Source: Mytilus galloprovincialis (lineage: Eukaryota > Mollusca > Bivalvia > Mytilida > Mytilidae). From it: 64,000 nucleotides of DNA. Made by a program: the position numbers and the translations under genes. Location of the stretch: contig NC_134846.1 in NCBI RefSeq assembly GCF_965363235.1, forward strand, positions 30,514,218 through 30,578,217, read 5' to 3'. This document shows, in pieces, positions 9,290-60,867 of the stretch. Below the pieces are notes generated by a model that was given only the letters and a program-made list of their open reading frames with translations, searched no databases and was not told where the DNA came from. How positions within the stretch are numbered: position 1 is the first letter of the stretch; every line of letters begins with the position of its first letter.

Positions 9290-9386
9290 ATGTGTTTGCA
9301 TTACATTTAATACTGCAAGTTTTGTACTCCACCATGTGTATACCAGATGGATAAGACATATGAATTGTGTTTTCTATATTATCTTT

Positions 9387-9389
9387 CAG
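9387..9389 (+). other. 3' splice site before the TLR-A coding exon
   Basis: A pyrimidine-rich tract ending in CAG, then GTAACTCTCATCAAAG and the start codon 23 nt downstream. TLR-C (AG at 60866-60867) and TLR-B (minus strand, 52630-52629) have equivalent acceptors 23 nt before their ATGG. The 5' untranslated exon itself was not located. Confidence 0.6.
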
Positions 9390-9412
9390 GTAACTCTCAT
9401 CAAAGAATCATA

Positions 9413-17529: not shown

Positions 17530-18035
17530 TTATCGGTTGTTGAAGTTTACGGGTCTCAAGTAGTCACTGTTGTCACTGTTTTCGTTTGACCAATAATTAT
17601 CGACGTCTCCATATCTGATTGGATTCGAAAGGGATTGAAAACTATTTGGATCATTTAGAGACTTGGGAACTGTCTCGATATCTGTTTGATCATTTGATGG
17701 TACGTTTGATTCTGATATACTTGCATCTCCGTGTCTGTGCATAAGATCACTGAAAACATATTTTGGATCTGTCCTAGAAGAAGCTAATTCATAAAATGGA
17801 TCCAGATATACTGAATTTGGATTATACATATTTGTAGTAAGCTCCCATTCTTCATCAATTGTATCATATATGGCTGATACTGTTGATATTCGCTTGTCAG
17901 GTTCTTCAAACGGTTTTTCACTTCTTTGGGTAGAGTTGTGATGTCGACGCAAGAATACCAGTATCAAAACTACGATACCAATAATTACAACAACACCAAC
18001 AGTTGGATAAATGATAATCTCTTTTGAGATGACAC
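17530..18035 (-). CDS. Chimeric receptor exon 17: transmembrane helix and cytoplasmic tail
   Basis: 506 nt from acceptor ATCGTAG|GT to the TAA at 17532-17530. Encodes [10 protein letters not shown], a hydrophobic helix ([17 protein letters not shown]), the stop-transfer RRHH, and a tail with tyrosines 1112, 1126, 1132, 1137, 1148, 1197, 1203 and 1214. [14 protein letters not shown] and DYLRP are candidate phosphotyrosine motifs. No kinase, TIR, death or NPxY motif. Confidence 0.9.
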
Positions 18036-21000
18036 CTACGATTAAAAAAAATAAAATGCATTACGTTGAACTGCCTTGATCAAGTAAAATCGACTCACCC
18101 TACAGCAAATGAAACTCCGAAATGTCAACTGTTTTATTTAAAATTTTGTACAACAATATCCTGATTTGTCCTTATTGACTCATTCACCTGTTTTTTAACT
18201 TCAGATTCATTTTCAAAATTCTAACTCTCACAAATATAAATCCCTAACTAACCCTGAAATAGTCTCAAGGCAATCATCATACACACCAATCACCTGCACA
18301 CGCTGATCACATTATCCTTGATGTATTTGTCTCACGCAGTTATTGAATAGATTGTTTGACAAACACAAATGTAGAAGCAGAACCAATTGCAAAGTATGTT
18401 GAGAAAATCTTCAATATGGATTGATACTCGAGATAACAAGAATGTGTCCAAAGTACACGGATGCCCCACTCGCACTATCATTTTCCATGTTCAGTCAACC
18501 GTAAAATTGGGTAACAAATCTAATTTGGCATTAAAATTCGACAGATCATACCATAGGGAACAGGTGTACTAAGTTTCAAGTTGATTGGACTTCAACTTCA
18601 TCAAAAACTACCTTGACCAAAAACTTTAACCTGAAACTCGCACTTTCATTTTCTATGTTCAGTGGACAGTGAAATTGGGGTCAAACGTCTAATTTGGCTC
18701 TATAATTAGACAGATCATACATATCATGAGGAACATGTGTACTAAGTTTCAAGTTGGTTGGACTTCAGCTTCATCAAAAACTACCTTGACCAACAACTTT
18801 AACCTGAGGCGGGACGAACGGACGAACGGACGCACAGATGGACGACCGAACGAACGGACGGACAGACGGGAAAACATAATGGCCCCTCTACTATCGTAGG
18901 TGGGGCATTAAAATGAAATAATTCTGCAAAAATCTTCACAGTTTTGTTTCAACTATTGTTATGCCACTGTAGTCAGCATTATAGGGACATAGAAAGCGCT
19001 CTCAAATTACACCATATAAATACAAAGGTTTTCATTAGGAACCAACCATTCTTCGATTTTTTGGGGCAGAGGGGATCAATTATGATTAAAACTAACAACG
19101 GTTTGAAAAGATTGACGAAATTCTGTGTTTGTCTAATATAAATTCCAGATAATATTATGGTCCCTATTCCTCCTTACAGTTCGTTTACTTAATTGCTGTA
19201 ACACCGACATGTCGAAGGATAAAAATTGTTTAGTTTTAAAAAAATGTATGATTACTATTATGAGTATCGTTACGTTTGTTTCTGTTACACATGTAGATAT
19301 TGATATATGCATTGCATTGTTCTATTTCATTGTCTTTTCATTAATCTTATACTGAAAACAATTTGCTGCACAGGTAAATACAATAAAAACTTGAAAGAAA
19401 TCGTATTTTAATGATCTTAGCGAAAAATGTAGTTATAAGTATTGAATGTTTCTTTTGGTAATTTCATAGGGTTGTAAAAGCGTTGAACGTGCGCAAAATG
19501 TAATTCGGTCAATGCTTTAACACTCCAATAAATTTACAATAAATAGCATTCAATTTGTACACTTAGCATAAAGCTATAGTCGCCGTCAGCTGAAATTCGT
19601 AGCGGTTATCGGTAAAAATAATCTAAACTATCAATCGCGTTCACTCGAGATATAGTTTTTCACATTCCATTCATAAATCGCAAAAAGAAAAACCACTGCT
19701 GACCTACCTTTTAAGTGATCACACTGTAATAATCCTGACCTTCACATTTTCCAGAATATTTTCCATTGTAATTCCGCCATCTTCGTTTCTATGAGGATCA
19801 TTTGTTTACATATGACATTCGTCACTGTACGCAGTTTCCTGAAATGTTCCTTTCATTGATGTGATAAGGTTTCCCGCGCTTTATGCAAATTTTATGAAAT
19901 TGAACTCCACGGAAACACTTCCGGTAAAAACAATGGCTGATTCCACCATTCAAAATCGTCTATGAAAAGTGAAGGTCAGGATTATTACAGTGCGATCACT
20001 TAAAAGGTAGGTCAGTAGTGGTTTTTCTTTTTGCGATTTATGAATGGAATGTGAAAAACTATATCTCGAGTGAACGCGATTGATAGTTTAGATTATTTTT
20101 ACCGATAACCGCTACGAATTTCAGCTGACGGCGACTATACACAGTTATTCATTTTTGGGGGCCCTTTAAAGCTTTTAGCCAAGACTCCGTGTTGAAGACC
20201 GAACTTTGACATATAATGGTTTACTTTACTGTTACACATTGTGATATGGATGGACAATTGTCTCATTGGCACTCATACGACATCCTCTTATGTTTAGTAT
20301 GATTTCTAGTTCAATACTGATAATATATACTTCACAAACTACAATTAATTGCAAGTGTTCAAAACATTGCTACGAAAGTGAAGTTTTCTGTAAACGTACC
20401 GTGGTCAATTTGTCGGTTTTTTTCATTGTAATCTTCATCCGGGATTTGTGTCACATTTTCTGAGCTTGAATGGCCTGGAAATATAAGATACAGGTGCATC
20501 ATTTAGTTACCGAACCCAAAAATGTTTATTAGTGAAATAATACACATTCGAGATTATGAACTTCTGTAAATTATTTTTTCTTGAAGATTCAAAAATTTTC
20601 TACCTTAGAAAGATGAAAATAACTAATGAAATTAACTTTTTTCATCAAATACAAGATTCATTAATATTATAACAGATATTCAAGTATACATAAAGCAAAC
20701 AGTTAATTGAAATAATTTTACACATAGCTTAAATTATTTTACAGGCTTAAGTATTTATGTCGGAGACAAAGTTTAAGTTGTTTAATTTCCATATACAATC
20801 CAAGTGCAATTACTTTGTATTAACGTACTGATTGGTTGAAAATCAGCGGCAAAGTATATATCGACCTGTCTGTAACTAAGGGCAGTCGACATCTTAAAAT
20901 TCCGAAAAGTTTTTAACTGTAATTTTTACACCAATAAGCAAAAAACTCAATTATTTTTTTTTTACTTTAATCTTTAGTAAATTTGATTAACACATTTATA

Positions 21001-24000
21001 TTAAAGATAAATACATCAAATATTTATATGAAAAGTTCTCATTAACATTAGTTTCGAACATTTATTATGGCAAATTTTGTTTGTACACATATTTCTTCAA
21101 TCCGGATATAATTTATGCCTTCACTTGACCGTTTTTTTATATTAATTGCTTTTTTTACAAAGTAGCTTGATTACATGTGTAGTGCTTTAAATGGAATATA
21201 CATTTGTGTAGAAGCAAAGGCTTTTTTTCAAAATATTTGTTATTGATAGATTATCAATATGCCGTTACTCTCTTTTGTTGTGAATATTCGTTTGAAATTC
21301 ATATGTGTTATACAAAATATATTTACAGTAACATCGGATGCTATTTATCAGATAATTCAGTTGAAGACTATTTTTTAAAAATCAGGTGTTTATGATTAAC
21401 ATGGTGTTCGTCATACTAACATCTAGTTTAGTTTGCGGAATTTTCGTTTAATGAAAACATGGAAAATGTTACACCGAAATAATGATTTGTTCACTTTGCA
21501 TTAGGATGAAGATAACTGTATTGTTTGAAGCTTTGTGGACGAACATTGAAAGTTTACTGTGACAAATATCTGTTCACACCCTGTGTCGCCAGATAAACTC
21601 AATTTGAGACAGAAAAATTATACATGTACGTCCGCAATATTTCAAATACAATACAGGTATCTCTTGAACGTGCATATGAATTTGATATATAGCAATAAAT
21701 ATATTTACTTGTAAAATCTACCGACGTTGTTTCTGTTCTTAATGTTTTAGCTTCTTCTGTTGATGCTTCAATCAAATTTTCTAGTTAAATTATAAATACA
21801 TCAGTCAATATATGTTTTGTAAAACAATTATATGTATATTTTTTTTTTTATTTAATCATTTTGAATGAAATGTATCTAGTTAATGTTGTAGATTTATTCG
21901 CAATTCAAAATCATATGAAAATACAAACAGACAACTGTCATGGAAGTGAACAAGTATACGGGAAAATATGTTTTATTTTATTTTCTACAGACGTGATAGT
22001 CATGTCATCTAACTCTACGATATACAAAAAGGAAATAAGATTAACATTGTCGACAAGTATCAGGGTGTTCAGGTCCTATAAACATCACATGTGTCACATT
22101 AGGAGGAAATTCTTCAACGGAGGGAAATATATCAAAAATATATAGTAAGTAGTGACAAACTGACAACTTCTAAGTTGTTTCAGTAACAGTTTGTGAAATT
22201 TTATTTCATCAGTTCGTCGTTTTCGTCTTTTAACAGACATGTAGTCAACCATTACAATTTTTTTGTCAATTTGTTTTGGCCTGAAAGCTTAAAGCCTTAA
22301 GCCTCTTTTGTTCAATAATTAATTTCTTTATTAGTTGATTTATTCATGTACAAATCCATACTCTCCGTTGAGTTTGTGCAAAACTAAGTATCAATCGAAG
22401 TATTTTGAGAATGCCAACAATTAATGTAAATAACACTTACCATGAACAATTATTGTAACTTCAATACTTCCTGTTCTTGCAGTATCATTTTGATGTGTAA
22501 CCGCGCATGAATAAATACCAACATCATTTTGAGATACAGCGTTGATTGTGTATGTTTGATTATTTGTAATGTCTGAGATAACCCCTTCAGAAAGACGTTT
22601 CCAAACAAAATAACATTTGGGATGACATATTGCGAAGCAAGTTACAATAAAGCGACTTCCTTCTGTAACAATCACTGATTCGGAGTCTGTTGAAAGTCTT
22701 ATAGATTCAGGACCATCTGAAACAAGACAAAACAGATAATAAAATAGCTATGAAGTTGTTTGCTTTATTAAGTTATATTTGTTTTGTTCATCACAAAGTT
22801 TGAATTTTGGTATTCCATGACCAGCATGTCTATTTGAAGAGGTGACAAAAAAAATAGAGAATTGTCAAAAAGCAAAAAGTAATGAAAGGTACCAGACTTA
22901 GAATTTGATACGCCAGACGCGCGTTTTGACTACATAAGACTCATCAGTGCCGCTCATATCAAAAAAGTTAGAAAGCCAAACAAATATAAAGTTGGAGAGC
23001 ATTGAAGACCCAAAAATCGCAAAAAGTTGTGCCAAATACGGTTAAGGTAAAAGAGGGACGAAAGACACCAGAGGGACAGTCAAACTCATAGACTGAAAAT
23101 AAACTGACAAACGACATGGCTAAGAATAAAAAAAATCAAACAGACATATAATAATACAGAAGACAAAACATAGAAAACTAAAGACTAAGCAACACGAACC
23201 CCACCAAAAACTGGGGGTGAACTCGTGTGCTCCGGAAGGGTAATCAGATCCTGCTCTACATGGGGCTTCCGTCGTGTTGCTTATGTTATTACAAATGCGG
23301 TAAAAAATCTTATTCGCTAGGTCACATTCGTGAAAAGGGAAGGGTATTGTAGTTACGACATAAGGAACATATCTGATATCATCTGTGAAACAGTTATTCC
23401 ATAACGATCAACCAACTCGTGATGGCGTCCGTAAAATTGCGAAGGGATGATTTCAATTTCACCATTTGGAACTCTTTGTTTAATAAATTCATTGTGAGTA
23501 GTAATCCTCTTTCAGGGAAATCAGGATAAGACATACAAGCTCGGGATAAGAAAATCATTAGCTTTTCGAATAATTTATACTTTTGCAAACAGCTAATTTT
23601 TAATACTGACCATATGATTGATATTCATGTCAACACCGAAGTGCTGCCTACTGGGCTGGTGATACTTTCCCAAAAAACTTGAAAGCTTAGTTTATTTTTG
23701 TTATGCCAATGAAGCATGACTACTGCTTAATTTTACGTAAAACAGAAATTATAAAGAAGTAGATGGACAAAACATATACGGTAAACTAATCTATAAGACC
23801 CACTTATATTTAAACAGCTGATACTTACAGTAGGGATCTAAACTGATTGTATTGCTGGAGGCAGAAACTTTCCCTCTATCGTCAGTAACGGTACATGATA
23901 CATCTTTGCCTTTATCAGACTTTGTAATGGGATTTATGCTTAATGTATTGTCCTGTTTAATACCGACTGCAGACCAGGTGTATTGCAAATGTCTTGGAAG

Positions 24001-27000
24001 ATACATAGGATGTCGTTTAACTGCAGATGAGCACTTGAATACACTTGTACTTCCAACAAAAGGTTGTTTATCATATGTCATATATGGAGTCTTGGGGTTC
24101 TCTAAAATTCAACGATAGAAAAATTGTATATTTTACAATTTGCATTGGCAAATGTTGATAGGAAAATGTACTGCTAAAAAAATGATATCATAGACAAGTT
24201 TAAATACAAATAATACCTGGCCTTATGAAATATTTTTAAAAGCTCAAAACACACATCATACAAATGGAAAACAAGTGTCCTTAAATGGTACAGTAGGACG
24301 TCAAACGTATTCCATAAACTTTATAAATTAGAATTTGTAGGCACAATATTATTCCAATATGTTTGCATTATTGATGTCATTAAGTACTCGAATGCTCGAA
24401 TATCGCTGGGTAGGAAAGATTATCGAATTGAGGAATGATATTCAACGTCGTAGTAATCAGTTTCCTGTTCAAACATTGTATCCGTTCATTTACTAGTATA
24501 ATATTGATGCTCGTAGAAACACCCCTTCGAGCATCTGTCCTATATAGGCCGACATTTCTTACTTAACGTGTCTTTATGCAAAAAAGACACGTTGTATTCT
24601 GAACTGATTTTTAATTAATTGTTACACTAGTGTGACGAAATATTGTACAGCCGTTCTACTTGTATTCTTCTAAAAAAACCTGTTGTTTTATCTGGTTTGA
24701 CTTGGTTGTCATTTATGTGCAAGAGGGGTGAAAGATACCAGATGGACAGTCAAACTCATATATCGAATATAAACTCAAAACGCCATAGCTAAAAAACAAA
24801 CAGACCAACAGACAAATAATACTAGTAGTACAAAAGACACAACATAGAAAACTAAAGACTTAGCATCCAAACCCCACAAAACACTGGGGTGATCTCAGGT
24901 GCTCCGAAAGAGTGAGTAGATAATGCTCCACATGTGGCACCCGTCGTGTTGCTCATGTTATTACAGCCCGGTAAATAGTATAATGCGGTAGTTCACAATA
25001 TGTACGCATTCAATTATTGATTTAATTATTGTTTAATCTTGTAATGATTTCATATAGTAAATGAGCTATCACCTCTGTATTTTATTCTGATTATCTAGTC
25101 CTAAGACAATTACTAACATACATCAGTTTTTGTATTCTCAGCCTAAACCATGATAGTAATGTAGGGGCTGTGTAATGTCTGTTAGACAACGAAACATTAA
25201 TGTAAAATATGCACAATTGATTTCCGTTGTGTTTGTTTTTCGGTGTGTACTCAATTATCATTTCGTTTAACCATCGACTATTAGAAAGTGTTACCTCCTG
25301 GTTTTTATAGATGCCGACTTTAGTGACATTTGAATTTATAAATTATGTGAAACATACCAAAATAATGTATGTGTACTAAACTATAGTCATGTTGTGGAGA
25401 ATAAAATTGAGAATGGCAATGGGGAATGATTATGTGTCAAAGAGACAACTACCTGACCATAGAACAGACAACAGCAAAAGGTTACCAATAGGTCTTCAAT
25501 GCATATTTTAAGTTTTTGTTGTCGTAAAGCACACAGATGGGTTCCAGGATTGATCCCGTAGGTAGTTCTTTCTTTGGGCAAGTCTGACACCTTGAGGTGT
25601 GTTCTATGACAAGAAAATTATCTGACTTATATACCGTAAAAAAAAACAGTATTTCCTACAAAATAGTTGCAGAAGAAGCCTGCTATTACCGACCACACTA
25701 ACGTGGAATATTCTTTACTATTTGAGTTCAGGTTTTAATACGCCCTAATTACTCGTGATACAAACCTTCGAACTCATTATTTAAATACAATAATTTCTTT
25801 TTACTGTAACTTCACTGAAACATGATATCTTACGGGTTGATTTTTTCAAAAGAAAATAACTATAAATAGGCATATAAGTATATAAATGTGTGTAAACATT
25901 TGAGTTCAGATGTATTGTAGACAAAATATTTGAGCAAAAAACAACATATATATGTGTACCTGTAATCACTAATAAGGCACATCCATCAATAACTGTGATG
26001 TCGGAAGCTGGTGCGGACTTGTACAACCCAACGTCAGATATTAAAACTTCTTGTAAGGTGAACTGAATATTCAAGCCATTTTTATTCAGATTCCTGTATT
26101 TCTGGGGATTATCAATTGGATTTTCATTCGCAAATATTTTTTTCTGTGTGTCTACTAGACTATCAAAATATACATCAACACTTGGGCGATCTGTTGGAGA
26201 GGTCCAAGTTATGTTTATGTTTTTATTCGGGTCAGAATAAACCAGGTTCTCTAGAACATAAAAACATTCCATAAAAAAAAACAAAAAACATTTAAGGAAT
26301 GACTGTATTATTTTTTTCTGTCTATAAAGAAATAACATAAAAAATTTGGTGCACACTGAATAAGCGCGTAGCGGGTTATTTAACAGTGTGCACCACATTT
26401 TTTTATGTTATTTCGAATAGACAGTAAAAATACTACAGTAATTTCTTATAATTTAATTCTAAATTCCATTTTAAACCGTAGAAAACCATGAAAAAACGTT
26501 GATTACGTCACGGTCACATGACTAAATTATGTATATGGGCTGATAACAAAATAACGTCAGCCAATCAGAAGACGCGTTACATCCAAAATTAAATTATTGA
26601 AAAATGAAGTATAGGTTAATGATTTCATATTGAAAACACATGTTTTTTTTGTGTAAATCTTAAACTCTTGCTTAATCACTATCAATTTTAAGATGTGAAA
26701 CAAAACCTAATTTGAATGTTCTTGGTAAAATTTAATGCTTCGTTCTACTGTATGGACAACAATAATCGTTATTATACGGTCTAACTAAAATTGACAAATT
26801 CAGAGTTAATAATTTAAATCTCGTTCTTGTATCAAAATCTTTTACAAAATCATAAATATTTGTATACAGAAAACTAGTTGAATTGATTTAAGGATTATAT
26901 TTACAAAGCTATTTTTATAACTTTTGTTTCAAATATAATTTGTATGAGTACCGGTTTTATCCTATCATACTTATACCCTTAATTTACTCAATTAATCAAC

Positions 27001-30000
27001 AAACCTGTTGCCCAAAATGTATGTTCTACTTTAGGGGACCATCCGTGCATACTGTATTGACATCGAAGTTTTATTTTATATCGATGACATTTCTGCAGCT
27101 GAATTGCTGTAATCGTATGTTTAGTCACTGGATAGTATGTACTTCTGGTATAAACTATAGAAACATCGTTATCATACAGTTCGAGTTCTGTTTGCACTAT
27201 ATAATCTAGGTTCACTGGAAAATTCCATGATACTTTAACACTCGTTGAACGCACGTCTATAATTACATCTTTAGGAGGTTCTGCAAAATAACATTTATAA
27301 AAGATATGAGATTGTGCAAATGAAAACAGTAAATGCTGTTTGGTTGGTTTAAGTGAAAAACAGCGTTTTGTAAACTAGCATGATTAAGCAAAATCCATCA
27401 AATAGGCGGTGTCTTTTAAATGGGTACAATGAATACAAAAATGTTGGACGTATCCATTTTCGACCACTCAAAGTTGTAAGATGCAACCAATTCTGTTATT
27501 TTTATTTTTTTTGCAATGTCAAACAATTGTACTGTTTAACGTCACAGATAATATTATTATTAATATCCCTGGACCTAAAAATTGTAACGACCATGGTAGT
27601 CAAGTAGTCATTATGAAATCCATAAAGACTACACACAAACTAATTGAACGAGTAACTCGTGAATATGTGAAAAGTAATTTGTTTGTCTTTGTTACGGAAA
27701 ACGTCTATCCACTAAGTTTGGTTACACTCTACAATTAAGCAAATGTTAGTAAATAGCTAATTAGAAATAAGATTCACTTACCAATAGTGACACATGTCTT
27801 ATTATCAGATGTCATTGCATAAAAATCAGGACACACGCAACCAGATAATGGACTTTGATCACTACTGTAAGTCGGTAATGGAACACAAATATGGCTACAA
27901 CCGCCATTACTTATTTCACAAACATTTGTTCCTACAAAACATATTAAACAGTAAACGCATTACCGCTGCGTGCAAATATTTTATTTGTTCTCTCCGATTG
28001 TCGCGTTTACTAGTAAAACTGGGTGTATTATGATCATGATGATAAAGATTTACGAGGTAAAACAGAAACAATCTGATGACTATTTTTCCTGACCGTAGAT
28101 TTAAGACTTTTGTCCATTAATCATTTATGAAAATTTTAAATACACATTATTTTCTTGTGAACACATCTTTCGATTTCGAAGTTTGAATATAGAACAACAA
28201 CTTTTTTAAAGTAGATTCTATCAATTTTCATAGTATTATTTTAATTTTGATTACAGAAATTGGATTTTCTATGTTGTCAACAATATATATAACAGAAGAT
28301 TCATCAAGGCAATGCTTGAAATATATGTAGACGACATAAAATGATTTCTAAACATTTTGTTTTAAGACAATTTCCTTGAGATCATTTCAAAAGATGGGAC
28401 GTAGTACATTACGGCACGGATACTCATCTGAAGTACACCCATCAGACACATCACAAAACTTCATGAAATTACATGGTGCAGGTATCTAGTTTAAGTCAAT
28501 GTATTTATCCTTGACTTTTTTTACACACAACTATTATTACATTTATGAGATATACATCAACTGAAACTTAAATCACTCATCTTTCAAATTTCCTCTGCAT
28601 ATATTCTGCATGTGTATTACAAACTCGTACTGACAATATTGAAACTTTTTTTTTTTAAAACAAACAAAACAAATGATATTCAAAAGAAGCGGGAACGAAC
28701 GCGTCAAATTCATAATTAGTTCATATAATACAATTGCCTATTTTTTTTGTTTGAAAATAGTCACCTTTAGGTTGCACTCCATCTGCAAATACTTGTATTC
28801 CCATCGGCGATCTTATATAATTTGCAACAATCGAAAAATCCCGCCCAGTGTTTTTGTTTACTCTGCATATACTTCTGTATTCCCAATTAGACCAATAAAC
28901 ATAACTTCCATACACCACCAAATCAAATGGTTTTGGTAACACATTTTCATTTTTAATCACGGTATATGTATCTGTTCCATCAAACCTTGTACTTTTAATT
29001 TGGTTTAGGGAACCATCTATCCAATATAACCTTCTTCCAATATGATCTACAAACATCAAAACATCTTAAGCGGCCATAAACTTCATTTTAATCTGGGTAA
29101 AACTTTGCGCACTTACATTTAAACGTATAAAGTAGATATCAATGCACCTTTTTTCTACAATTAAACCTACAAAACGTGTGATGATATTTTACTGTGTATT
29201 CAGTCCATTGAATGAGTATTTCAGACGCAATTTTGATGTATACCAATTGATTAAATATGGCAACCACTGGCATGCAACAAAATGTGGAGGATATCAACAA
29301 CAACAAAACCTTGAGCAAGGTTTATATCATTGCCTTTGATATAGATTTAATAACTAAAACTATCTGAGTGATAAGCCTCTTGATCTATTCTGCATGTGTT
29401 ATAATCCTGAAGAAACGATTAATTCAGATTATAATGTATTTATTTTGGAAACCGGCCCTTCGATGATGTGAACAGATTCTTACTCACACAGAACAAATCC
29501 ATTAACTCATGCATCCAAGTGAACCACCTGAAATGTCTAACGCGTTATAGAGGTATGTGATATTGAATTCCTAACAACATTGGTGTACCAAGCAAGCTTA
29601 TTATCAAAAATCTTATAGAAGTATCGAAGAAACACATGCCACCACACAATAGACGACAAAAAACACATAACCTAAATAAGTAAAGCGTGAACTAGCATGA
29701 CTAGGTAAGGCCCTGACCAAAATCTCAAAATCAACATTTTTTCTTTGTAAAAAAAAAACTATTCAGGTGAAGAGGAAATCACAAGAAGAAATAAAAATCA
29801 TCAAAACAAATGAACAAATCTTAAAAACAAACAAATAATAAGTCAAACAGACCGACACATGAGACACTAATGTTTCAATTTAGCTAATAAAATCATTTCA
29901 TTTTGTGTGATAATTTACATAAATGTCATGTATACAGGGGCATTATCTTAACACATTTGGACTAATGCTACATTTACCAACCAACGAAATGATAGTGCTC

Positions 30001-33000: not shown

Positions 33001-36000
33001 AATGATTGTTTTTCTGTCTGTTCCATCAAGTCGTGACATTTGTATATGGTTATGTCCCGTATCTGTCCAGTACAAAAGGTTATAAATCCAATCAATAGCT
33101 ATCCCATCTGGAACATCTACTGTTTCGACAATAATGTCTTCAACATCACCAGAAACGGACGTTCCTGTCACCGTACTCCTAAAAGAAAGAAAAGTAAAAC
33201 TGGAAAAAAAATCTAGTGCTATTTTTGTGTAACAATTGTTTTTTAATTGTTTTTTTTTTTTCATTTAACATGTTGTATTACATTTTCATGTTTTTGTATT
33301 CTGAGTTCACATCATAGGTTTTATTTTTTATTTTTCTTATAGTTATGTTCTCACACAATAATTGCGTTAAATTTAATTTGTAAAGTGGGTTTTTTTGCCA
33401 AAATATCAGCACGAGGATTTTGTATTTGTATGTGTATTTCTTTTTATCTCAACTAACAATGAACGAAAATGATTAATTGAAATGATGCGCTATGAAAAGA
33501 AATCAAATGCTATATATCTTTATACGGATTTTGAGAAAGTTCATGTAAATAGTAAGAATATAAGATGTCTTCCTCGTTTTGTTTAATTGGACTTTCCAAA
33601 ATCTTACGTCTCGGGATTCCCGAAAACTTTGAGTTTTCAGTGTTTGATTTTAGGTTGAACATCTGAAATCAGCCCTTGTTTTCGGTGGGGTTAATTTGTC
33701 GTAAGTCGAGTATTCCTGATTGTGTTTACTGCAATTTGTTCTTCGTAATTGTCATGGCATTGTCTGTTTGCTTTACACTTATGAGTTTGTTTTTCCCAAC
33801 AGATATCTTCTCCTCCTTATTCATGAGAATGTGTTTTATCATTTGACTCTTTGTTTGATTATCCGAAAATAATTAATGATAGTATTGTGAATGCAATAAT
33901 ATCCATACCTTGATATCTTCTTGGCGCGTACATCAGACCAATATACGAATCCTTTCTCATAATGAATGTCTAGATCTACAGCATTAGTTGTTTTAGAAGC
34001 AATTGTCTCCGTAACATTAGTCTCAAGGTCAATTCGTTCAATGGTGTTGAGATTAGCAAAGGTTACCCATTTACCAGAACCTTATAAAAGCGTAAAGTTA
34101 GTATGCATAATATAGCCTTGATTTAAAAAACAAAAGACATTAACTTGATTATAAATACCTTATTATCTCAGTAGTTCTGTATAGTTTTACAAGTAGGAAT
34201 TTTGTTTTAATGACATTTGCCTTGATAAATCTTATGAAAGCGTAGACAATCATTTTAGATTTCGAAATATATATCCCAAACACATAAAACTGATCCGTAT
34301 ATGAAGTCTGCCTTACATGGTGGTCTTTTTCAGCGAAGATCAGCTGTTGAAGTCATTTATACGTTTAATGAAAATATTGTGAAATCAATCACGTAACGCT
34401 CGAATAAAAACAAGTGCAAATGTACATCTCTATTGGCCATTTTACATGTTGAAATTGAAAGTAAACAAAAAATTCAAAATATACAAAAATATATATTTTA
34501 CCTCTGTAAAGGCATGTTTTTTCATCAGCTTTCAGTTCAAATCCATCCGCACATGTACAAATAACTGTATATTGTGGAGTTGGCAGACAAAGTTGTTCAC
34601 AACCACCATTGTTTGAAAAACACAGATTAGTACCTAGAATAACGCGAAAATACGATGAAAGGTTGATTGAATTTATCATGTGTGATATTATATACAGTGC
34701 AATTAATAAGTTCACTCGTACAATTGAGTAGGTTGTTTAAGGTTGCATTTCTGTAAATATTGACAATGCAATTTCCCATAGGAACTTCTTTTACGGCTAA
34801 AACTGTACCACTTTTACTATGAAGTTTTGAAAAAAATCTTATCCTAGAATTGAAAGTTCATATGCACCACAATTTTTTTCAAAGGTCAAAATATAGGGCT
34901 GTGCGGCATATTTTCAACGTTTATATATCCTAAACTTCTCAGAGTATAAACTAACACTAATGTTCTTAACTACCCCTACCTCGAATGAAAGGTTACCACA
35001 AATTTCAATGTAAACAATATGCACGTGTCTATTTACTGGTTATATTCCCAAGTTATGTCTCTGTGAGATGGAACATAGAGAGTATAACTGGGAACCAGTG
35101 TGTAAACAAAATTAATTTTTCTATGGATATTCAAGATCTCCCTAAGTGGCGTGTTTTGAGAAACAGCTGTATTTACAAAGTCAACCTTAAGGGCATACGA
35201 TACAGTTTTGATCCCATATTTCAATTTTGCTGACAATTTGCATATAGGCTATTTTTTGCCTGATAAATTCAAATATGTAATAAAAAATATATTTAAATCT
35301 GCTACTTTTTAAGTAAAATGAGGTAAAAAATCATTGCTCAAAGTTCGGTTTTGTGAACGTAATGTAATATTCCTTTCGATAGAAATACATAACTTTTTTG
35401 TTGAAAAGATAAACACAAGCTGTTTTTTTTTGTTAAATTATTAATAAATTCTGTTCTATATAAATGTCCTTTAAATTTGTGCAATTTGTTTTTCAAATAA
35501 CTCATATTTATCAAATGTTCACAAATGTAGAAAAAAACGTCATTGTTTGCCGTATATTTATCAAATTATGAAAAAAATGCAAAAGTGTGTGTGTGTAATT
35601 TTATTCTTTTCGTAGTTATTTGGTTGTATTACAATAGAATACTGCATTATGTATTATAACTAATAATAAGTGAGTTGTAACAGAACCAACTTTTATCGAT
35701 ATATTGGTCTATAATAAATGCCCCTCTTTTTTTAGCAATTACAACGTGTTTAAGTACAGTGTTGCAGTTTTACATGTTAAGTTTTTCCATCGTCTGACTT
35801 TGATATATAGTGTGTTTACAGTTGTCTGTTTGTCTTTTTCCTATTTAGACATTTATTTCCGACCTATGGGTTTGAATGTACTTTTGGTAGCTTTTGTCTC
35901 AGTCGTGTAGAAACCTCTTTTGACTCATTCTATTTAAGACTTTATATAACGATTAATTGATTATTTCAAAAGCAGATTGTTTGGAAGGAAAGAACATTTT

Positions 36001-39000
36001 TATCGATAAATCTATTAAAAACGTATTATTTATTACACAACCGTCATCAAGTAATACCTTTAGGCTGATTATCCTCGCTGTAAACTTTAATTCCTACAGG
36101 TTGATCTGCATTTGCTCTTATTATTTGGAAATTCGAACCATTCTGCTTATCTACGCGACATACACTATTGTTGCTAAATTGGGTAAGGTATAACCAATTT
36201 TTATACACTACTATACCCCACACCCATGGCAAATTGTCTGCAGACAGCATCATAAGTTTCTGAATATCTGTTCCATCCAACTTTGATGATTTTATATGCT
36301 TCAGCAGAATGTGATTGTCCGTCCAATAAAGTCGGTTTGTCGTAAAATCTAGATAATACGGTTTTGAAAGAAAGACAAGTATTTGCTTTTGTTTATTCTC
36401 AACATATGATCGGAAGAATACACTACAGTTATTCAGTGAAGAACATTATCCTAAATATGCTACTTTTATAAATTGTTATTTGGATGGATAGTTGTCTCAT
36501 CGGCACTCACACCACATCTTCCTATATCTATCTTTTGTTGTTGGTTCTAGTTACGCTTATAAGCATGATATATATGTTATGAACAAATTGAAATGTAGGA
36601 AATATTTCAATAGTACAGGAACCAACTGAAACATAACTTTAGATATCACCTGGAGATCACTAAAATGTCCTCAATACTAAATATATATCTATTTAATATG
36701 TTTTTACTGAACGGTGTTTATTATGTCATCACCGGGACAAACAGAATGATTAACCAGATACCTGTGTTATTTGAAAACAACAAAATACACAACAAAAATC
36801 GATTATGAAGATATTTTCAAATTAAAATATTGTCTTTTGACTTGTATCGGTTGAGATTTCTTATATGACGCCAGGAAACCTTAGAATTACCCAAATTCAT
36901 TTGACCTTTGCTCGTCAAATTCAGATCTGAGGGCCTTCGCCGCCGAGTGGTCTAAGTCGTAACTACTGTAATCACCAGGGAGTCAACATTTAGGTTGTGA
37001 ATCTTAATTGACTAAATATGGCAAAATGAGCAAAAACTGCATACTATTTATAACTTATTATGTTTATTCTGAAAAGAACATGTGTGCCTATTTTGATGTT
37101 GGTGATAAATTGCACTAAGAAATACCCAGATAAAAAATGTACTTACTTTACTCTTTTAGTTACAAATAGTTCAATATGTCATTATCCAAAACACATTGTT
37201 ATCTTAACATCCCATGTAGTTGTACTAAACTTACCAATTGACAATCCATTCGGAGAACCGATATCAGTTGTCACAATGGCTTGTCTGTTGCTTCCATCAA
37301 GGCCACATTTCTCTATCTTTGGATCGTCCACATCAGTAAAAAACATCCATCTTCACATACAATAAATGTTTGTAGTTTTTTATATACTTTTATTTAATTT
37401 GTTTAGGTTTATTCATAACCTATGTAATTTTTCTATTGGTGAGACTGTATGTTAGTTTATTAATCCTCTGTGCTGTTTTTTTCTTTTGATTGGTTCTTAT
37501 TGCATTGGCGTTTTACCTAATATATTTCTATAGTCATTCAGTCAGACGAACATTACTTTGAACATTTCAAATTACACAATTGAATCAAAGATCTCTTTCG
37601 AATTTCGTGTGTAGTAATGAATTACAGGTAACTTGATCATATTATGATAGTGCTATGTTATGCAAATTCTCATACAGTGTAACCTGTCTAATCCGACATC
37701 TTAGAAGTCCAAAATCCTGCTTTAACCGACACATTTTCACATGTGTCTATCCTTACAGAAATAACATGAGTATTCCGACACCCTGATTCATCTGACATTT
37801 TTTTCTGGTCCCCAGGTGTTTCGGATAACACAGGTTACACTGTAACTTAGTGTGTGTTTCCCTTGTATCTGTTCTTGAATAGAAATAATGTCTACGCAAT
37901 TAGGAATATAAAAAAGGTATCAAGAAGTTTGCTCAAACACTTACCCAATATTTGGGTAGACAATAAGTGCACGGGGATATACCAGTTGAGTACTAATTAT
38001 AGTTTTTCTCTGTGTGCCATCTAACTCAGAGACCATTATATGATCATGACTTGCATCAATCCAGTAAAGATGGTCGTATATCCAATCTACAGCAATTGCA
38101 TCCGCCAAGCTTAGCGAATTTGTGATTATGTCGAACGTATCATTTGGGTTGAACAGATTCATTCTATAATAAAAAGTGACATGATGTAACGTTGTTTACG
38201 ATGTGAGAAATACATTAAAGTTGCTTTAAACTGTAAATATCAATGAAGTATTTTAGGGTAAGACACTTGTTTTGACTTTTTTACTGGTTAAATAAGGCAA
38301 ACTAGTCATTGGTATAGTACCTGTGTCGAATCATTAGTAGTCAGTTCTTGTTTTTCTACAGTAAAACCCACCATAATAGTTTTGATCACTGAATATACGC
38401 ATACCCCCCAAAATATTGACCAATGATTCCACTAAACAAAACTGCTTTATGGTCGGGTTGTTGTCTCTTTGGCACATTCTCCATTTCCATTCAAAATTTT
38501 ATAAGATCATATCTGTTAATATAGGCTAAAATTCAATTGTAATGATTAAACGTAAGGGTACCCAAATTGCACCTATTTAAAAAGTTTTTCGCCTACGTTT
38601 ACGTATTGAAACCAGACAAAAGTGTATTTTGTTAGCTTATCCCTATTTACAATATATTGTTCGACCAATTTTATTTTGAATCCAAATTGAATCATAGAAA
38701 AATGGGTTTGAACTGACTTCCAAACAATTCATGATTCTTTATTGTGGAGTACCCAATATGCATTCATGCTTAAATCATATCTTACAAATCATATAACAGA
38801 TGTATAGTTTAATGTCTTACAATATTTAGTATTATTTGACATTAGTCCATGGTTACTATCAACCTTTTTTTGCAGTGACGTTAAATGTTTCTCTGAATAC
38901 CTGCTACAAATGTGGTTGTTTGAAAAATACATAAAGGGTTCTATGTAGCTTTAAATAAAAATGCCAAAAAACAAGCCTTATATAAATAAGCTCATCATAT

Positions 39001-42000
39001 ATACCAGGATTAAATTTTGTATTTACGCCAACTCGCGTTTGGTCTACAAAAGATCATCAGTGACGCTCGAATCCAAAAAAAAAGTCTGTAGTTAGAGAGC
39101 ATTGAGGACCAAAATTTCTAAAAGTTGTGTCAAAAATGATCTAATGGGATGAATCAAACATTTCATAGTAATATTGTAATGTACAATATCAAATCCTTTA
39201 TTTGTAATCCATTGAGTCATTTAAGTGTACTGATTAGTTGACTGAACAAATACAACGTTTAATAAGTCTTTACTGATCCTGTTTGAACTTTTAATTATGC
39301 ATGCACATGTTGTTGGTAAAGAGATTTTTTAACAAACGTAGAATAAAATATATCGTTTAATAAAGTTCAAGTTAGAAACAAATGTAGCGTTTGTACTAAC
39401 AAACGACGAACTACAAACTGTAGACGCATCTTTAGCGAATGCATAGTTTGTCAAAGTTTATGTAAATTTTGCAAACGTATTTTAGAAACAAATGATCGAA
39501 ACACGTGTGCGCTTAGTCTTTTGCATCGTTTGTGTTAGAAAGAAATGCACTCAATATGATATTTACCTTGATACCCGATCAGCTTTTTGATCAGAGTAGA
39601 AAATAAAACCTGTGTTAAAATGATAGTCTAGTGATACAGCACCAACCATGCCCCTAACTACCGAAGTGTTTTTCCACGTCTCCACTTCTAGCCGATCGAC
39701 TGTTAACCTGTTGGTGTGCATTACCCATGGGTTATCATCTTCAATAATTATAAGATGAAAATGAACATAGTAACTGCAAATGATACTTAAAAGTCAACAT
39801 TTCTTGATATAATGTTTAGTTACTCAATGATTGAAATGTCAATCGGAGTTCAATATTTTATCCCACATCAATATGTATGGTTATGCATTTCATATGGAAG
39901 GCAAATTAAACGTAAAAATTCCATAGAGTTTATCGTCATGTAAAGTGGTAGACACGTAGTTGTATTAAACTGTATGTTTACAAACATTGCATTTGATCCA
40001 ACTGTTTGCATAACAGTGTACACGAATCTTAAAATAACAACCATTAAACTCAGTGAATTTTGTTTGAAAAGATGATCTAGATGTAAAATTGTCTTTAAAA
40101 AAGGACGAAAGATACCTGAGGGACAGTCAAACACATATACTGAAAGTAAACTGACAACGCCATGGCTAAAATTAAAAAGACAAACAGACTTATAATAATA
40201 CAGGAGACACAGCATAGAAAACTAAAGACTAAGCAACACGAACCCCACAAATACTGGGGGTGCTCTCATGTGCTCCGAAAGGGTACGTAGATATTAATAT
40301 ATAGACAATAACCAGCACGTGTGTTTCAGCTTTGTAGATTTAAGTAAACATGATACATTTTTAAGCTCTGTCTCCAATGTTTTAACCAATAAAATGTAAT
40401 TCCAAACTAGAAGAACATACAAAGATGAACTACTGTGAAACAGTATATTTCCCCTGTCACGGAATATGAGTCCATCGTTAAAGCGTATTAACGTTGACAT
40501 TATTATATGATAAAAACTCTTTAATAACACTATACAGTTATACAATTAACAAATCTTTGTCGAAGTCATTAGTTGTCACCCATCTATCCTATTTATTAGA
40601 CAAGGAAGTTCTGTTATATGTACGACTGCGATGTCTTTGTTACACCCATTACTACTAAGTGCTCAATCAAGCATAATGAATTCATTTACATTGAATGTCA
40701 TAATTTGAATACACATACAATTGTATGTTTGAATGATAAAGGCATATGTAATTGAATTAACGTATATACTTGAGAGATTTAAGTAATTGTAGTTACTGCA
40801 AAAATGACAGTATTATATCTTGCATGTTGTTTATTTTATAAAAATTCAATTGTATAAAAAAACATCAAACAGTGCGAAGAAACAAAACATTACTCCTTGC
40901 GTTACGAATGACATAACTGTTATCTCTTTTGATATCATTTGTTCATGTCTCATTTTACATAATTGTTATATTTAAAAAGTCAATAATAAACGATATATTT
41001 AAGAACTCACAGACGAATAACATTTGCCTTTATTGATTAAATTTGTGAAAATATATTTACCGTTTATCAAATATTAATAAGTCCATTATAGGGTTTTATT
41101 AACCAATTAAGTACATTATTGCCAAAAATGACTGGTTATTAACAATAACATATTTTCTGTAATGGCCCTGTTTTTCTGTAATGGCCCTGTTATTTCTGTA
41201 ATGGCCCTGTTTTTCTGTAATGGCCCTGTATTAATGCACAGATTGTCTGTATTAAGCTCAGTTAGGGTTTTTAATAAAGTTTATAAAATAAAGTTGTAAA
41301 GAGTATAATACCTTTTTGTATTTTATTTAATTTAGTAACCATCAAAAAACATTAAAGAACCATATAAAGGGATCACTGTTCATCCTGTTTTTCAACACAT
41401 AACTTCTATCATGGTGAAGTACAATTTGTTTTTCAAACTAAACTGTCATTAAAAGAGTAAGAGAGTACATCAAGTTGGCAGCAACATATACACTTTTTTC
41501 AGTTGGTTAATAAATGTATTAAGAAATGGGTGTTTTTATAATGGCCCTGTTATATTCCTTGGTCAGTAATAATGACCTCGGATATCTGTAATAGCCCTCG
41601 GCGTTGCCTCGGGCCATTACAGACTTCTCCGACCATTATTTTTTTACAGACCTTGGACATATAACAGGTCCATTATAAAAATACTCATTCATTAATACTG
41701 TATTACTGTCTGTTTGTGCTTAAAACTAGTAGTGTTATAATTATATCTCTTTAAGGCAGTGTCTCTCGTATTTTTAATCAGTATTTGTTTTCTTCATATA
41801 TTTTTCCTCTGACGCTTATCAGCTACACGGTAAATAAAAAAAAATCGAGCTATTCTTCAAATGCACTAAAAATTCATGGTTTTACGGTTTTTAAGTGGGG
41901 GATAACAGTCTATTGCCGTACCTCACCCAAGTGCTGTATACAGTCGCTTAAATGGGTAGTCTGTTCAATTATAAAATACTTATTCGCGCTCTCTCGTAAT

Positions 42001-42621
42001 GATATGTTTATTCTGATTCCTGGTGTTAGTGCACTTGGTTCACTGAGCTCTCTTTACGTTGGATAACTCTTGTAACAACTCTTTTAATATATAGGTTGCC
42101 TATTTGAAGTTTGAAGTCAATAATTACTTTATTACGACTTAATATATCAACAACAACAAGTAATTCTATTTTATATGTCGTAGACGCAGTGAATGCTGTA
42201 AATCAAATTATATTTTTGGTATGGTTGTCTTGAATATACTTCTTGACTGATCATTGTCCCAAGAACTTATGCTGCGCATTTTTGTTTTATGATTTAATAT
42301 CTGTTTTACTTAATATATCATTATGGTACAACTACAATTATTTATTTGTGTCTGCACAATTTCACATACATTATTTAGTGCATTTTATTTTCGTTGAATA
42401 TTTTGAAAAAAAAATTAAAACAGAGAGAAAAAATAGTAGAACAACCTTTAGAAATCATTCAATGTCTGAGGAGGTATTATAGATAAATTAATTAATACGA
42501 ATGATTTAATATACATAATTATTTAGTACCTACCTTTAGCTAGTACAATCAACTTATTTAGTATATAACAGCAAACAACCAACAATTGAAAATATCGTTT
42601 CAATGTAAATGTGTTCACCAT
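17530..42621 (-). CDS. Chimeric LRP/Ig-type membrane receptor (gene span, 17 coding exons)
   Basis: A single-pass type I receptor of 1,223 residues, assembled from 17 exons with GT-AG borders. Total coding length is 3,672 nt and all phases match. Domains: signal peptide 1 to about 29; YWTD beta-propeller 1 (30-295); EGF 1 (296-340); YWTD beta-propeller 2 (340-609); EGF 2 (609-659); FN3 (659-751); Ig-like 1 (751-848), Ig 2 (848-939) and Ig 3 (939-1031); linker; transmembrane helix about 1062-1084; 139-residue cytoplasmic tail. The propeller-EGF units are as in LDLR/LRP proteins, where they bind ligands and can release them at acid pH. FN3 and Ig domains usually mediate adhesion or recognition. 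The tail lacks an NPxY endocytosis motif but has eight tyrosines, two in YLxP context (Y1132, Y1214). No named family with this domain order is known to me. Exon borders are my own reading and need transcript support. Confidence 0.85.
18460..18910 (+). repeat. Dispersed repeat with internal duplication and (GACGAACG)n tract, in receptor intron 16
   Basis: Two tandem units of roughly 165-175 bp share CACTCGCAC/CTCGCACTTTCATTTT and GTGTACTAAGTTTCAAGTTG. They are followed by a GGACGAACGG-type microsatellite (about 18812-18870) and the end GCCCCTCTACTATCGTAGG with TGGGGCATTA. The order of parts suggests the end of a known bivalve repeat. Confidence 0.7.
19575..20139. mobile_element. Foldback/MITE-like element with 171-bp inverted arms, in receptor intron 16
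   Basis: Arm 1 (19575-19745) and arm 2 (19969-20139) are near-perfect reverse complements around a 223-bp centre. Ends read TATAGTCGCC ... GGCGACTATA, so a TA target duplication is possible. No ORF. Confidence 0.85.
20155..20290 (+). repeat. Dispersed repeat family C
   Basis: Contains GGGGGCCCTTTAAAGC, CCAAGACTCCGTGTTGAAGA and ATAATGGTTTAC. It ends 110 bp short of receptor exon 16. Confidence 0.65.
20400..20474 (-). CDS. Chimeric receptor exon 16: juxtamembrane linker
   Basis: 75 nt, phase 1 to 1. Encodes [20 protein letters not shown] followed by QIDH. Hydrophilic and acidic, with one N-glycosylation sequon (NVT). Found from the splice sites TTTCCAG|GC and CACG|GTACGT; both joins keep the frame. 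Confidence 0.8.
22441..22716 (-). CDS. Chimeric receptor exon 15: Ig-like domain 3
   Basis: 276 nt, phase 1 to 1. Encodes [20 protein letters not shown] and [12 protein letters not shown]. There are two extra cysteines in the B-C region (CFAICHPKC), perhaps an additional disulphide. Confidence 0.9.
22885..23600 (-). mobile_element. Mobile-element 3' end: ORF remnant, family B and 'GACGCGCG' end, in receptor intron 14
   Basis: On the minus strand, a frame with [18 protein letters not shown] (ending at 23394) is followed by family B sequence (GATACCAGAGGGACAGTCAA in inverse). It then ends with a block carrying the inverse of CGCCAGACGCGCGTTTTGAC (about 22908-22927). The order ORF, family B, GACGCGCG end suggests family B is the trailing sequence of an RT-type element. 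Class uncertain. Broken. Confidence 0.5.
23829..24101 (-). CDS. Chimeric receptor exon 14: Ig-like domain 2
   Basis: 273 nt, phase 1 to 1. Encodes [22 protein letters not shown] and [15 protein letters not shown], a C...W...C Ig pattern. It ends SLDPY, joining exon 15 as DPYYGPESI. Confidence 0.88.
24722..24990 (+). repeat. Dispersed repeat family B, in receptor intron 13
   Basis: Contains GATACCAGATGGACAGTCAA, AACATAGAAAACTAAAGACT and CACCCGTCGTGTTGCTCATG, matching the copies at 23047 and 40090. Confidence 0.7.
25403..25505 (+). repeat. Dispersed repeat family A, in receptor intron 13
   Basis: GAGAATGGCAATGGGGAATG, TGTGTCAAAGAGACAAC and AGGTCTTCAATG in the order seen in other family A copies. 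Confidence 0.65.
25578..25770 (+). repeat. Dispersed repeat, family G, in receptor intron 13
   Basis: TGACACCTTGAGGTGTGTT, an AAGAAAAT/TTATCTGACTTAT block and GGTTTTAATAC recur in the same order at 43296-43480. Confidence 0.5.
25960..26250 (-). CDS. Chimeric receptor exon 13: Ig-like domain 1 (no canonical Cys pair)
   Basis: 291 nt, phase 1 to 1. Encodes [23 protein letters not shown] and GCALLVIT. The D-x-G-x-Y motif and the final strand fit an Ig V-like fold, but the usual B- and F-strand cysteines are missing; only one Cys is present. Confidence 0.75.
26300..26440. repeat. Foldback element with about 57-nt arms, in receptor intron 12
   Basis: TGACTGTATTATTTTT ... GGTGCACACTG (26300-26357) is mirrored by CAGTGTGCACCAC ... 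ACTACAGTA (26384-26440) around a short centre (TAAGCGCGTAGCGGG). The left arm is only 50 bp from the acceptor of exon 13. Confidence 0.8.
26440..26580. repeat. Dispersed element shared with 55780-55860
   Basis: ATTTCTTATAATTTAATTCT, continuing AAATTCCATTTTA, and then GAAAAAACGTTGATTACGTCAC. The inverse of the same sequence occurs at 55780-55855, where the last block reads TGACGTCATCAACG on the plus strand. Confidence 0.7.
27005..27280 (-). CDS. Chimeric receptor exon 12: fibronectin type III domain
   Basis: 276 nt, phase 1 to 1, one domain per exon. Encodes [20 protein letters not shown], a Y/L-rich core and [18 protein letters not shown]. The P..V...S..VSW opening and the Y-x-I-K-L strand are FN3-like. 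Confidence 0.8.
27782..27931 (-). CDS. Chimeric receptor exon 11: EGF 2
   Basis: 150 nt, phase 1 to 1. Six cysteines: [30 protein letters not shown]. The loop between Cys 3 and Cys 4 is several residues longer than in EGF 1. Confidence 0.9.
28370..28470 (-). other. Cysteine-rich open stretch inside receptor intron 10 (unexplained)
   Basis: The minus-strand frame gives [20 protein letters not shown], faintly like an LDLR class A module (CD..S....SDE..C). It lies between the exons for propeller 2 and EGF 2. No acceptor/donor pair gives the required phase 1 to 1 join, so it is not included in the gene. A decayed exon or chance are both possible. Confidence 0.2.
28765..29046 (-). CDS. Chimeric receptor exon 10: propeller 2, last blades
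   Basis: 282 nt, phase 1 to 1. Contains [37 protein letters not shown] and ends QPKG. Confidence 0.93.
30491..30609 (-). CDS. Chimeric receptor exon 9: propeller 2 (YWTD)
   Basis: 119 nt, phase 2 to 1. Encodes [20 protein letters not shown] and WPNGLTI. Counterpart of exon 4. Confidence 0.9.
30794..31412. mobile_element. MITE, about 620 bp, in receptor intron 8
   Basis: The left end ACTGTATAACATTAATTTTC, then GTGGGGTT, is mirrored at the right by CCCCACGAACATTTC and TTTTACAGTATTA. Sub-terminal TTCGTGG/CCACGAA words alternate in both orientations. No ORF. Confidence 0.65.
31443..32350. mobile_element. Non-autonomous DNA element, about 0.9 kb, in receptor intron 8
   Basis: The left GCTACTATAGACCAGTCAA and right TTGACTGGACCACTAG are inverse-related. 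The interior holds GGGGAGATAACTCCGC and its inverse-like GAGTTATCTCCC. No ORF. Confidence 0.5.
32945..33178 (-). CDS. Chimeric receptor exon 8: propeller 2 (YWTD)
   Basis: 234 nt, phase 2 to 2. Contains [32 protein letters not shown] and [11 protein letters not shown]. Confidence 0.95.
33909..34080 (-). CDS. Chimeric receptor exon 7: propeller 2, blades 1-2
   Basis: 172 nt, phase 1 to 2. Encodes [19 protein letters not shown] and [14 protein letters not shown]. Same length and phases as exon 2. Confidence 0.9.
34502..34633 (-). CDS. Chimeric receptor exon 6: EGF 1
   Basis: 132 nt, phase 1 to 1. Six cysteines in LDLR-type EGF spacing: [35 protein letters not shown]. Confidence 0.92.
34740..35700. 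other. Intron 5 sequence, no further exon seen
   Basis: A roughly 1 kb AT-rich part of receptor intron 5 (34634-36057). Short open frames at 34985-35236 look like repeat sequence rather than exons, with no fitting splice sites. Confidence 0.4.
36058..36348 (-). CDS. Chimeric receptor exon 5: propeller 1, last blades
   Basis: 291 nt, phase 1 to 1. Contains [43 protein letters not shown] and ends QPKG. Counterpart of exon 10. Confidence 0.9.
36464..36535 (+). repeat. Family C fragment in receptor intron 4
   Basis: TTATAAATTGTTATTTGGAT and CACACCACATCTTCCTATAT, as at the 3' end of other family C copies. Confidence 0.65.
36931..37010 (+). repeat. tRNA-like SINE head, degraded
   Basis: GGGCCTTCGCCGCCGAGTGG continuing TCTAAGTCG resembles the first part of a tRNA with an A box (TGGTCTAAGTCG). 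GGTTGTGAATC about 40 nt downstream is a decayed B box (GGTTCGAATC). It does not fold as an intact tRNA. A tRNA-derived SINE is the likeliest reading. Confidence 0.45.
37235..37350 (-). CDS. Chimeric receptor exon 4: propeller 1 (YWTD)
   Basis: 116 nt, phase 2 to 1. Encodes [20 protein letters not shown] and SPNGLSI. Counterpart of exon 9. Too short to stand out as an ORF; found from splice sites and motif. Confidence 0.9.
37945..38163 (-). CDS. Chimeric receptor exon 3: propeller 1 (YWTD)
   Basis: 219 nt, phase 2 to 2. Contains [19 protein letters not shown], then [10 protein letters not shown] and [11 protein letters not shown], the canonical LDLR class B repeat pattern. It is homologous to exon 8. 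Confidence 0.9.
38447..38499 (-). repeat. Family A fragment, inverted, in receptor intron 2
   Basis: GGTCGGGTTGTTGTCTCTTT and GGCACATTCTCCATTTCC are the inverse of the family A core. Confidence 0.7.
38990..39165 (+). repeat. 'GACGCGCG'-end repeat fragment in receptor intron 2
   Basis: Contains CTCATCATATATACCAGGAT, ATCATCAGTGACGCTCG, GAGAGCATTGAGGACCAAAA and AAAGTTGTGTC. It is related to the ends at 22885-23045 and 58140-58310. Confidence 0.6.
39567..39738 (-). CDS. Chimeric receptor exon 2: propeller 1, blades 1-2
   Basis: 172 nt, phase 1 to 2, the same length and phases as exon 7. Encodes [20 protein letters not shown] and later [13 protein letters not shown], in the style of YWTD blades. 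Acceptor TTGAAG|AT, donor TCAAG|GTAAAT. Confidence 0.8.
40090..40290 (+). repeat. Dispersed repeat family B in receptor intron 1
   Basis: GATACCTGAGGGACAGTCAA, CATAGAAAACTAAAGACTAA and CAACACGAACCCCACAAATA, in the same order as at 23047. Confidence 0.7.
41152..41690. repeat. GGCCCTGT minisatellite and inverted element in receptor intron 1
   Basis: Four 20-21 bp units of TTCTGTAATGGCCCTGT (41152-41230). About 300 bp further on, a region folds back on itself: TATAATGGCCCTGTTATATT is mirrored by ATATAACAGGTCCATTATA, with a central CTGTAATAGCCCTCGGCG and its inverse CCTCGGGCCATTACAG. The array and the palindrome share the same word and probably belong to one element. Confidence 0.75.
42534..42621 (-). 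CDS. Chimeric receptor exon 1: signal peptide
   Basis: 88 coding nt, ending phase 1. ATG at 42621, with an in-frame TGA 15 nt upstream. Encodes [18 protein letters not shown] and a further hydrophobic stretch to VLAK. The donor is AAAG|GTAGGT. The split codon with exon 2 gives Asp (G+AT). This is the only signal-peptide-like exon found upstream of the first propeller exon, and its phase fits. Untranslated 5' sequence and promoter were not identified. Confidence 0.75.
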
Positions 42622-52570: not shown

Positions 52571-52628
52571 AAACTAAGTAATGCACAGATCCAAATTATA
52601 GCCATTATATTTCAATGGTATAGATCAC

Positions 52629-60860: not shown

Positions 60861-60865
60861 ACTTC

Positions 60866-60867
60866 AG
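60866..60867 (+). other. 3' splice site before the TLR-C coding exon
   Basis: A T-rich tract, CTACTTCAG|GTAACAG, with the ATG 23 nt downstream. Equivalent to the acceptors of TLR-A and TLR-B. Confidence 0.65.

Follow-up and report, generated by a model that had tools for sequence, protein, structure and literature searches.

Invertebrate receptors have often been assembled by domain shuffling. In the LDLR/LRP family (LRP2, LRP4, LRP6, LDLR), YWTD propellers are each followed by an EGF domain in a chain with a single transmembrane (TM) segment. SORL1 and ROS1 combine propellers with FN3 domains, and pro-EGF has propellers without LDLa modules; to our knowledge, none of SORL1, ROS1/Sevenless and pro-EGF has Ig domains. 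The bivalve gene described here shares with the LDLR/LRP family the propellers, the EGF domain after each of them and the single TM segment, but it carries FN3 and Ig domains next to the membrane. Its product would work like an LRP-type receptor, yet two defining features of the LDLR family, LDLa modules and an NPxY motif, were not found in it. SORL1 differs by the VPS10 and LDLa domains beside its FN3 domains, neither of which appeared in our Pfam scan, and ROS1/Sevenless by the tyrosine kinase behind its TM segment, whereas Pfam found no kinase here and the tail is 139 aa long.

The initial annotation of this locus knew of no described receptor with such a combination, and none was found in the parts of the open-access literature that were searched. 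Both LRP-type propellers and Ig domains play central parts in cell-surface recognition in animals, and within that same portion of the literature we did not find both described in one chain; the modules are known and their combination is apparently undescribed, making this a new arrangement of known parts. We have high confidence in the gene and its mosaic structure. It is reasonably probable that the product is a single-pass type I bivalve surface receptor, built as a mosaic of a propeller receptor and an FN3-Ig cassette.

Gene model and domain order

The window, by which we mean the whole 64,000-nt stretch of DNA analysed, corresponded to C9:30514218-30578217 in a searched host genome of 1.385 Gb and 331 contigs. 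Propeller, FN3-Ig and tail matches in that genome were located on C1-C10, C12-C14 and C207, a distribution compatible with a mussel (n = 14 in Mytilus). Seventeen minus-strand exons (42621->17530) were rejoined from the window and gave 3,672 nt, encoding 1,223 aa and a single terminal stop, with GT-AG boundaries at 16/16 introns and exon phases consistent throughout. The uninterrupted 17-exon frame of this length annotated initially was thereby confirmed. Exons 6 and 11-16, which encode the two EGF domains, the FN3 and Ig domains and the stalk, were symmetric (phase 1-1). The features, in window positions with the basis of each assignment in brackets, were as follows.

42534..42621, minus strand: exon 1, start codon followed by a segment resembling a signal peptide (frame, hydropathy)
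36058..39738, minus strand: exons 2-5 (39738-39567, 38163-37945, 37350-37235, 36348-36058), first YWTD propeller (frame, Pfam, PDB relatives, C10 exons 2-5)
34502..34633, minus strand: exon 6, EGF-like domain 1, FXa_inhibition (frame, Pfam, C10 counterpart)
28765..34080, minus strand: exons 7-10 (34080-33909, 33178-32945, 30609-30491, 29046-28765), second YWTD propeller (frame, Pfam, C10 counterparts)
27782..27931, minus strand: exon 11, EGF-like domain 2, the final exon ahead of the FN3-Ig cassette (3' phase 1; frame, C10 counterpart)
27005..27280, minus strand: exon 12, FN3 domain (phase 1-1; weak Pfam match, fn3 match of a relative, Foldseek, relatives on C2/C5/C6)
25960..26250, minus strand: exon 13, Ig-like domain lacking the typical pair of cysteines (phase 1-1; PDB matches of the family profile)
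23829..24101, minus strand: exon 14, Ig domain (phase 1-1; Pfam matches of relatives, profile, 39-48% identity to six relatives)
22441..22716, minus strand: exon 15, Ig domain (phase 1-1; Ig_3, E 2.8e-8)
20400..20474, minus strand: exon 16, short stalk next to the membrane (phase 1-1; counterpart at C10 not found)
17530..18035, minus strand: exon 17, TM helix followed by a tail of 139 aa (8 tyrosines) and the stop (frame, hydropathy, homology to C10 exon 17)

The domain order proposed initially (signal peptide, YWTD propeller-EGF twice, FN3, three Ig domains, TM segment, tail) was supported by Pfam, by relatives of the individual exons and by hydropathy, which indicated a signal-peptide-like N-terminus and a single TM segment at approximately residues 1062-1084. 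In the joined protein, Pfam matched Ldl_recept_b over 6 stretches (E 2.3e-61) and the EGF-like family FXa_inhibition over 2 (E 7.7e-18). The nearest solved chains of the propeller part in a sequence search included LRP2, LRP4, LRP6 and LDLR, and the first and second propeller-EGF units were 41% identical to each other.

Exon 15 was a clear Ig domain in Pfam. Exons 12-14 fell below Pfam cut-offs when taken alone, and their identities were backed by relatives and by one structural model. Exon 12 alone was a weak FN3 match (fn3, E 0.0033), outscored by Pur_ac_phosph_N at 2e-4; fn3 was matched by three of the five members of its family scanned, the window's included, with the best value (1e-6) in a relative. 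A single-sequence model of exon 12 (pLDDT 69), compared with known structures by Foldseek, matched mostly FN3 domains, with 2 matches at E <= 0.001 and TM-scores of approximately 0.5-0.6. Exon 14 alone was likewise a weak Ig match (E 0.025), while Ig_2 was matched by four of the seven members of its family scanned (best 4.4e-7, in a relative) and the family profile found NCAM2 and Robo. Exon 13 alone had no Pfam match, and its single-sequence model (pLDDT 41) was too low for use. A PDB search with the profile of its relatives gave 28 different sequences with E <= 1 (best E 4e-4), of which we take 27 to be Ig proteins by molecule name, the remaining one being a putative hydrolase. V-set was matched by two of the six exon 13 members scanned, the window's included (best 0.025), and single members matched unrelated families better; the Ig assignment of exon 13 therefore relies on the PDB profile together with the position of the exon.

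A paralogue without the cassette

A paralogue at C10:75413100-75400567 carried exons 2-11 and 17 in the same order and with matching phases; its first exon was a candidate only. Exon lengths were equal to those of the C9 gene in nine of 11 cases, with exon 5 being 3 nt shorter and the final exon also shorter in C10, and 553 of 741 aligned residues (75%) were identical. Over these 741 codons, dS was 0.80 and dN 0.147 (dN/dS 0.183), and dN/dS ranged from 0.088 to 0.423 by exon, with all 11 exons below 0.45. The highest value (0.42) belonged to the TM/tail exon, which evolves faster than the ectodomain. Exon by exon, the paralogue resembled the C9 gene in its two propeller-EGF units and its YDTI-containing TM/tail exon, and differed from it in that FN3, Ig and stalk exons were not found and the tail was shorter, without the C-terminal part of the C9 tail. 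Its EGF 2 exon joined its TM exon in frame across an interval of approximately 950 bp. Used as pairwise queries, exons 12-16 matched nothing in the 40 kb surrounding the paralogue, and profiles of exons 12-15 matched nothing in that interval.

The C9 tail exon, located 3' of the Ig exons, has its homologue in the last exon of this propeller paralogue, where EGF 2 leads directly to the TM segment. The tail of the C9 gene therefore belongs to the propeller gene, and the FN3-Ig block accordingly sits inside that gene. Within it, the Ig part could be optional, with a short, C10-like isoform (exon 11 joined to exon 17) made beside a long one that includes the cassette. All cassette exons are symmetric (phase 1-1), such that skipping them keeps the frame, and the short arrangement is the form that C10 encodes. 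However, symmetric-phase exons are by themselves common in extracellular genes, and we consider such a pair of isoforms possible but somewhat unlikely.

It is very unlikely that a propeller receptor and an FN3-Ig receptor are two separate genes co-located here by chance, with the split between exons 11 and 12, the position that the initial annotation had named for one. The relatives of the FN3-Ig exons do lie elsewhere at loci without detected propellers, and intron 11 holds one AATAAA, both of which would suit two genes. Against this, the tail after the Ig exons is that of the propeller paralogue by homology, no second TM segment precedes exon 17 in the joined protein, and intron 11, at 501 bp, offers no usable leader, with none of its ATGs (0/7) providing one for exon 12. 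The tail homology and the lack of a leader in intron 11 supported the single chain annotated initially.

Another gene on C10 (66.727-66.735 Mb; L029-L030) had the propeller-EGF-propeller-EGF order and the same exon pattern, with ~35-69% identity by exon and no recognisable TM segment further downstream. In this gene, C10b (66.72-66.73 Mb), neither a tail nor Ig domains were recognised in the 8 kb below the second EGF domain, and gain versus loss of the cassette was not decided by it. A gene on C1 at 17.79 Mb was set aside as LDLR/VLDLR-like (NPVYRKT in a downstream ORF), and we presume it to be of the LDLR/VLDLR type.

Origin of the cassette and the question of LDLa modules

Relatives of the FN3-Ig exons were clustered on C2, C5 and C6. 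The search with the FN3-Ig exons and the tail gave at least 75 matches, with the best 77 of 112 candidates scored; this figure counts the gene itself and the matches to the tail. On C5 and C6 the order was FN3, cysteine-poor Ig, Ig, Ig, as in the window, and C2 held a partial series in the same order; one C6 locus carried the last Ig exon in four copies, behind which lay a TM-like ORF (by eye) without a match to exon 17. This FN3-Ig family of the same genome is like the cassette in order and in sequence, whereas its loci have neither a propeller match nearby nor an exon 17 match. None of the propeller matches listed was near the C2/C5/C6 loci, and exon 17 had no match in 12 stretches of C2, C5 and C6 carrying or adjoining the family, nor in a thirteenth (L018). 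Among the propeller matches listed, which are lower bounds (at least 97, from the best 150 scored of 217, and at least 67, from 67 scored of 384), those of this window were the only ones adjoining FN3-Ig exons when the lists were compared by eye. The FN3 exon of the window follows propellers and its tail is of the propeller-paralogue type; the ends of the FN3-Ig relatives were seen as raw ORFs.

Identity to aligned relatives was 28-36% for exons 12 and 13, with one value at 19%, and higher for exon 14, suggesting that the transfer was not recent or that the cassette evolves fast. These alignments comprised the window and four of six relatives for exon 12, five of seven for exon 13 and six of nine for exon 14, as short or near-identical rows were dropped; exon 15 had 11 relatives, which stood outside the alignments. 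In exon 12, the window kept 13 of the 22 residues invariant in the aligned relatives; the corresponding figures were 5 of 10 for exon 13 and 18 of 20 for exon 14. The strong divergence of the cassette, the weak or absent Pfam scores of exons 12-14 and the five of 10 residues kept by exon 13 would fit a dying insertion in an intron that is normally skipped. This is nevertheless highly improbable, as all four FN3/Ig exons (372 codons) are open with intact splice sites, the chance of their staying open being ~10^-12.8 at the stop probability given by the base composition of the window (p = 0.076 per codon), and as the 18 residues kept by exon 14 among those invariant in six relatives include both cysteines.

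A parsimonious account of the mosaic would be exon shuffling through phase-1 introns into an LDLa-less LRP-type receptor. The cassette, composed of phase-1 exons for FN3, three Ig domains and a short stalk, would have come from the FN3-Ig family elsewhere in the genome and been placed between EGF 2 and the membrane. The initial proposal that Ig domains replace LDLa modules was not supported, because the Ig block is membrane-adjacent and a pattern scan of the 40 kb around the C10 paralogue, which lacks the block, found no LDLa; the cassette was gained or lost between EGF 2 and the TM segment, rather than Ig being substituted for LDLa. Nor were additional LDLa exons, a prospect raised in the earlier annotation, found in the window. 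That the gene encodes an LRP4/LRP-type receptor of the ordinary kind, with LDLa exons that escaped detection, is barely credible. LRP2, LRP4 and LRP6 are the best solved relatives of its propeller part, but pattern scans of both strands of the window, strict as well as loose, revealed no LDLa, though the pattern did recover one in locus L004. In addition, the two EGF exons were the only domain-like ones among 17 Cys-rich segments of the window (by eye), and no NPxY was found in the tail.

The clustered FN3-Ig family at C6:62.37-62.68 Mb (L015-L016, L020) varied in the number of its last Ig exon and could be a diversified recognition family. On C5, reverse-transcriptase-like ORFs (by eye) lay between the Ig exons of an FN3-Ig gene (L025 3956-5007).

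Tail, possible function and neighbourhood

The tail contained two YxxPhi matches and one ITIM-like match (IRYGDV) besides its tyrosines. Its earlier description as tyrosine-rich was fair, given 8 tyrosines in 139 aa, although the enrichment is modest. The stretch IYDTIDE was identical in C10. Outside the propeller genes, a TM/tail ORF at C12:38.98 Mb, lying 3' of SRCR exons and in the same orientation as these, was weakly similar to exon 17 (E ~1e-4). The SRCR exons and this ORF, which follow one another at 580-5866 of L027 (C12:38976001-38986000), probably form one gene, judging from their position. That locus differs from the C9 gene by the SRCR exons upstream and by a tail in which YDTI is not kept. 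A tail-only search of the genome gave seven matches, two of which (E 0.6-0.7) were probably due to chance, and did not return the SRCR-side tail. Because YDTI is absent and the tail-only search did not return the C12 locus, the apparent link to SRCR receptors is tentative.

C12 gave further weak tail matches, at 42.71 and 43.54 Mb. At C9:30.40 Mb (L013 4588-5029) and C12:39.39 Mb (L014), the TM/tail exon stood alone and was interrupted by in-frame stops; no other exon of the receptor gene was matched in the 10 kb around each.

Cell-surface recognition is the likeliest setting for the receptor, which may function in recognition or adhesion. By analogy with LRP propellers, the propeller head would have a protein as its ligand. 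If the Ig-FN3 segments of NCAM and Robo are a guide, the FN3-Ig segment may add a second binding or adhesion surface and lift the head from the membrane. Since the YDTI motif is conserved in C10, we infer that the tail tyrosines may be phosphorylated on clustering, recruiting SH2 proteins or driving internalisation. We offer this signalling mechanism with less than even confidence.

A broader reading, which we regard as speculative and rather doubtful, is that bivalves assemble their recognition receptors through the exchange of phase-1 exon cassettes between families, by which an LRP-type head, a block from an expanded FN3-Ig family and a tyrosine tail common with SRCR receptors would have come together in one chain. 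If bivalves do swap cassettes in this manner, the C9/C10 pair would be a natural experiment, with and without the cassette, for the effect of the Ig domains; what the Ig block contributes is open to direct test through the paralogue that lacks the cassette. Should the SRCR tail similarity hold, signals from several types of bivalve receptor may converge on one path.

In the window, the receptor gene is flanked by three Toll-like receptor genes, each a single ORF in which Pfam identified LRR and TIR, at 9311-11506 (+), 50297-52573 (-) and 60831-62984 (+), and this position may hint at an immune setting. One Toll-like query gave no match in the 40 kb around the C10 paralogue, which is why we place little weight on that setting.

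At the 3' end of the gene, neither AATAAA nor ATTAAA was found in the 1 kb behind the final stop, which counts against the proposed reading. Smaller features of the window included a candidate for an extra stalk exon (21780-21709; 72 nt, phase 1-1). The candidate was rejected as no better than chance, with 10 such candidates in the 25-kb gene and a pyrimidine count of 7, under the cut of 8 used. Intron 16 contained an inverted repeat (19575-20139) with two 195-nt arms, 94% complementary and separated by 175 nt, resembling a small mobile element. A dispersed repeat had three intronic copies (23042-23216, 24712-24890 and 40089-40260), and an ORF at 4894-5283 (+) resembled, by eye, the end of a retrotransposon polyprotein.
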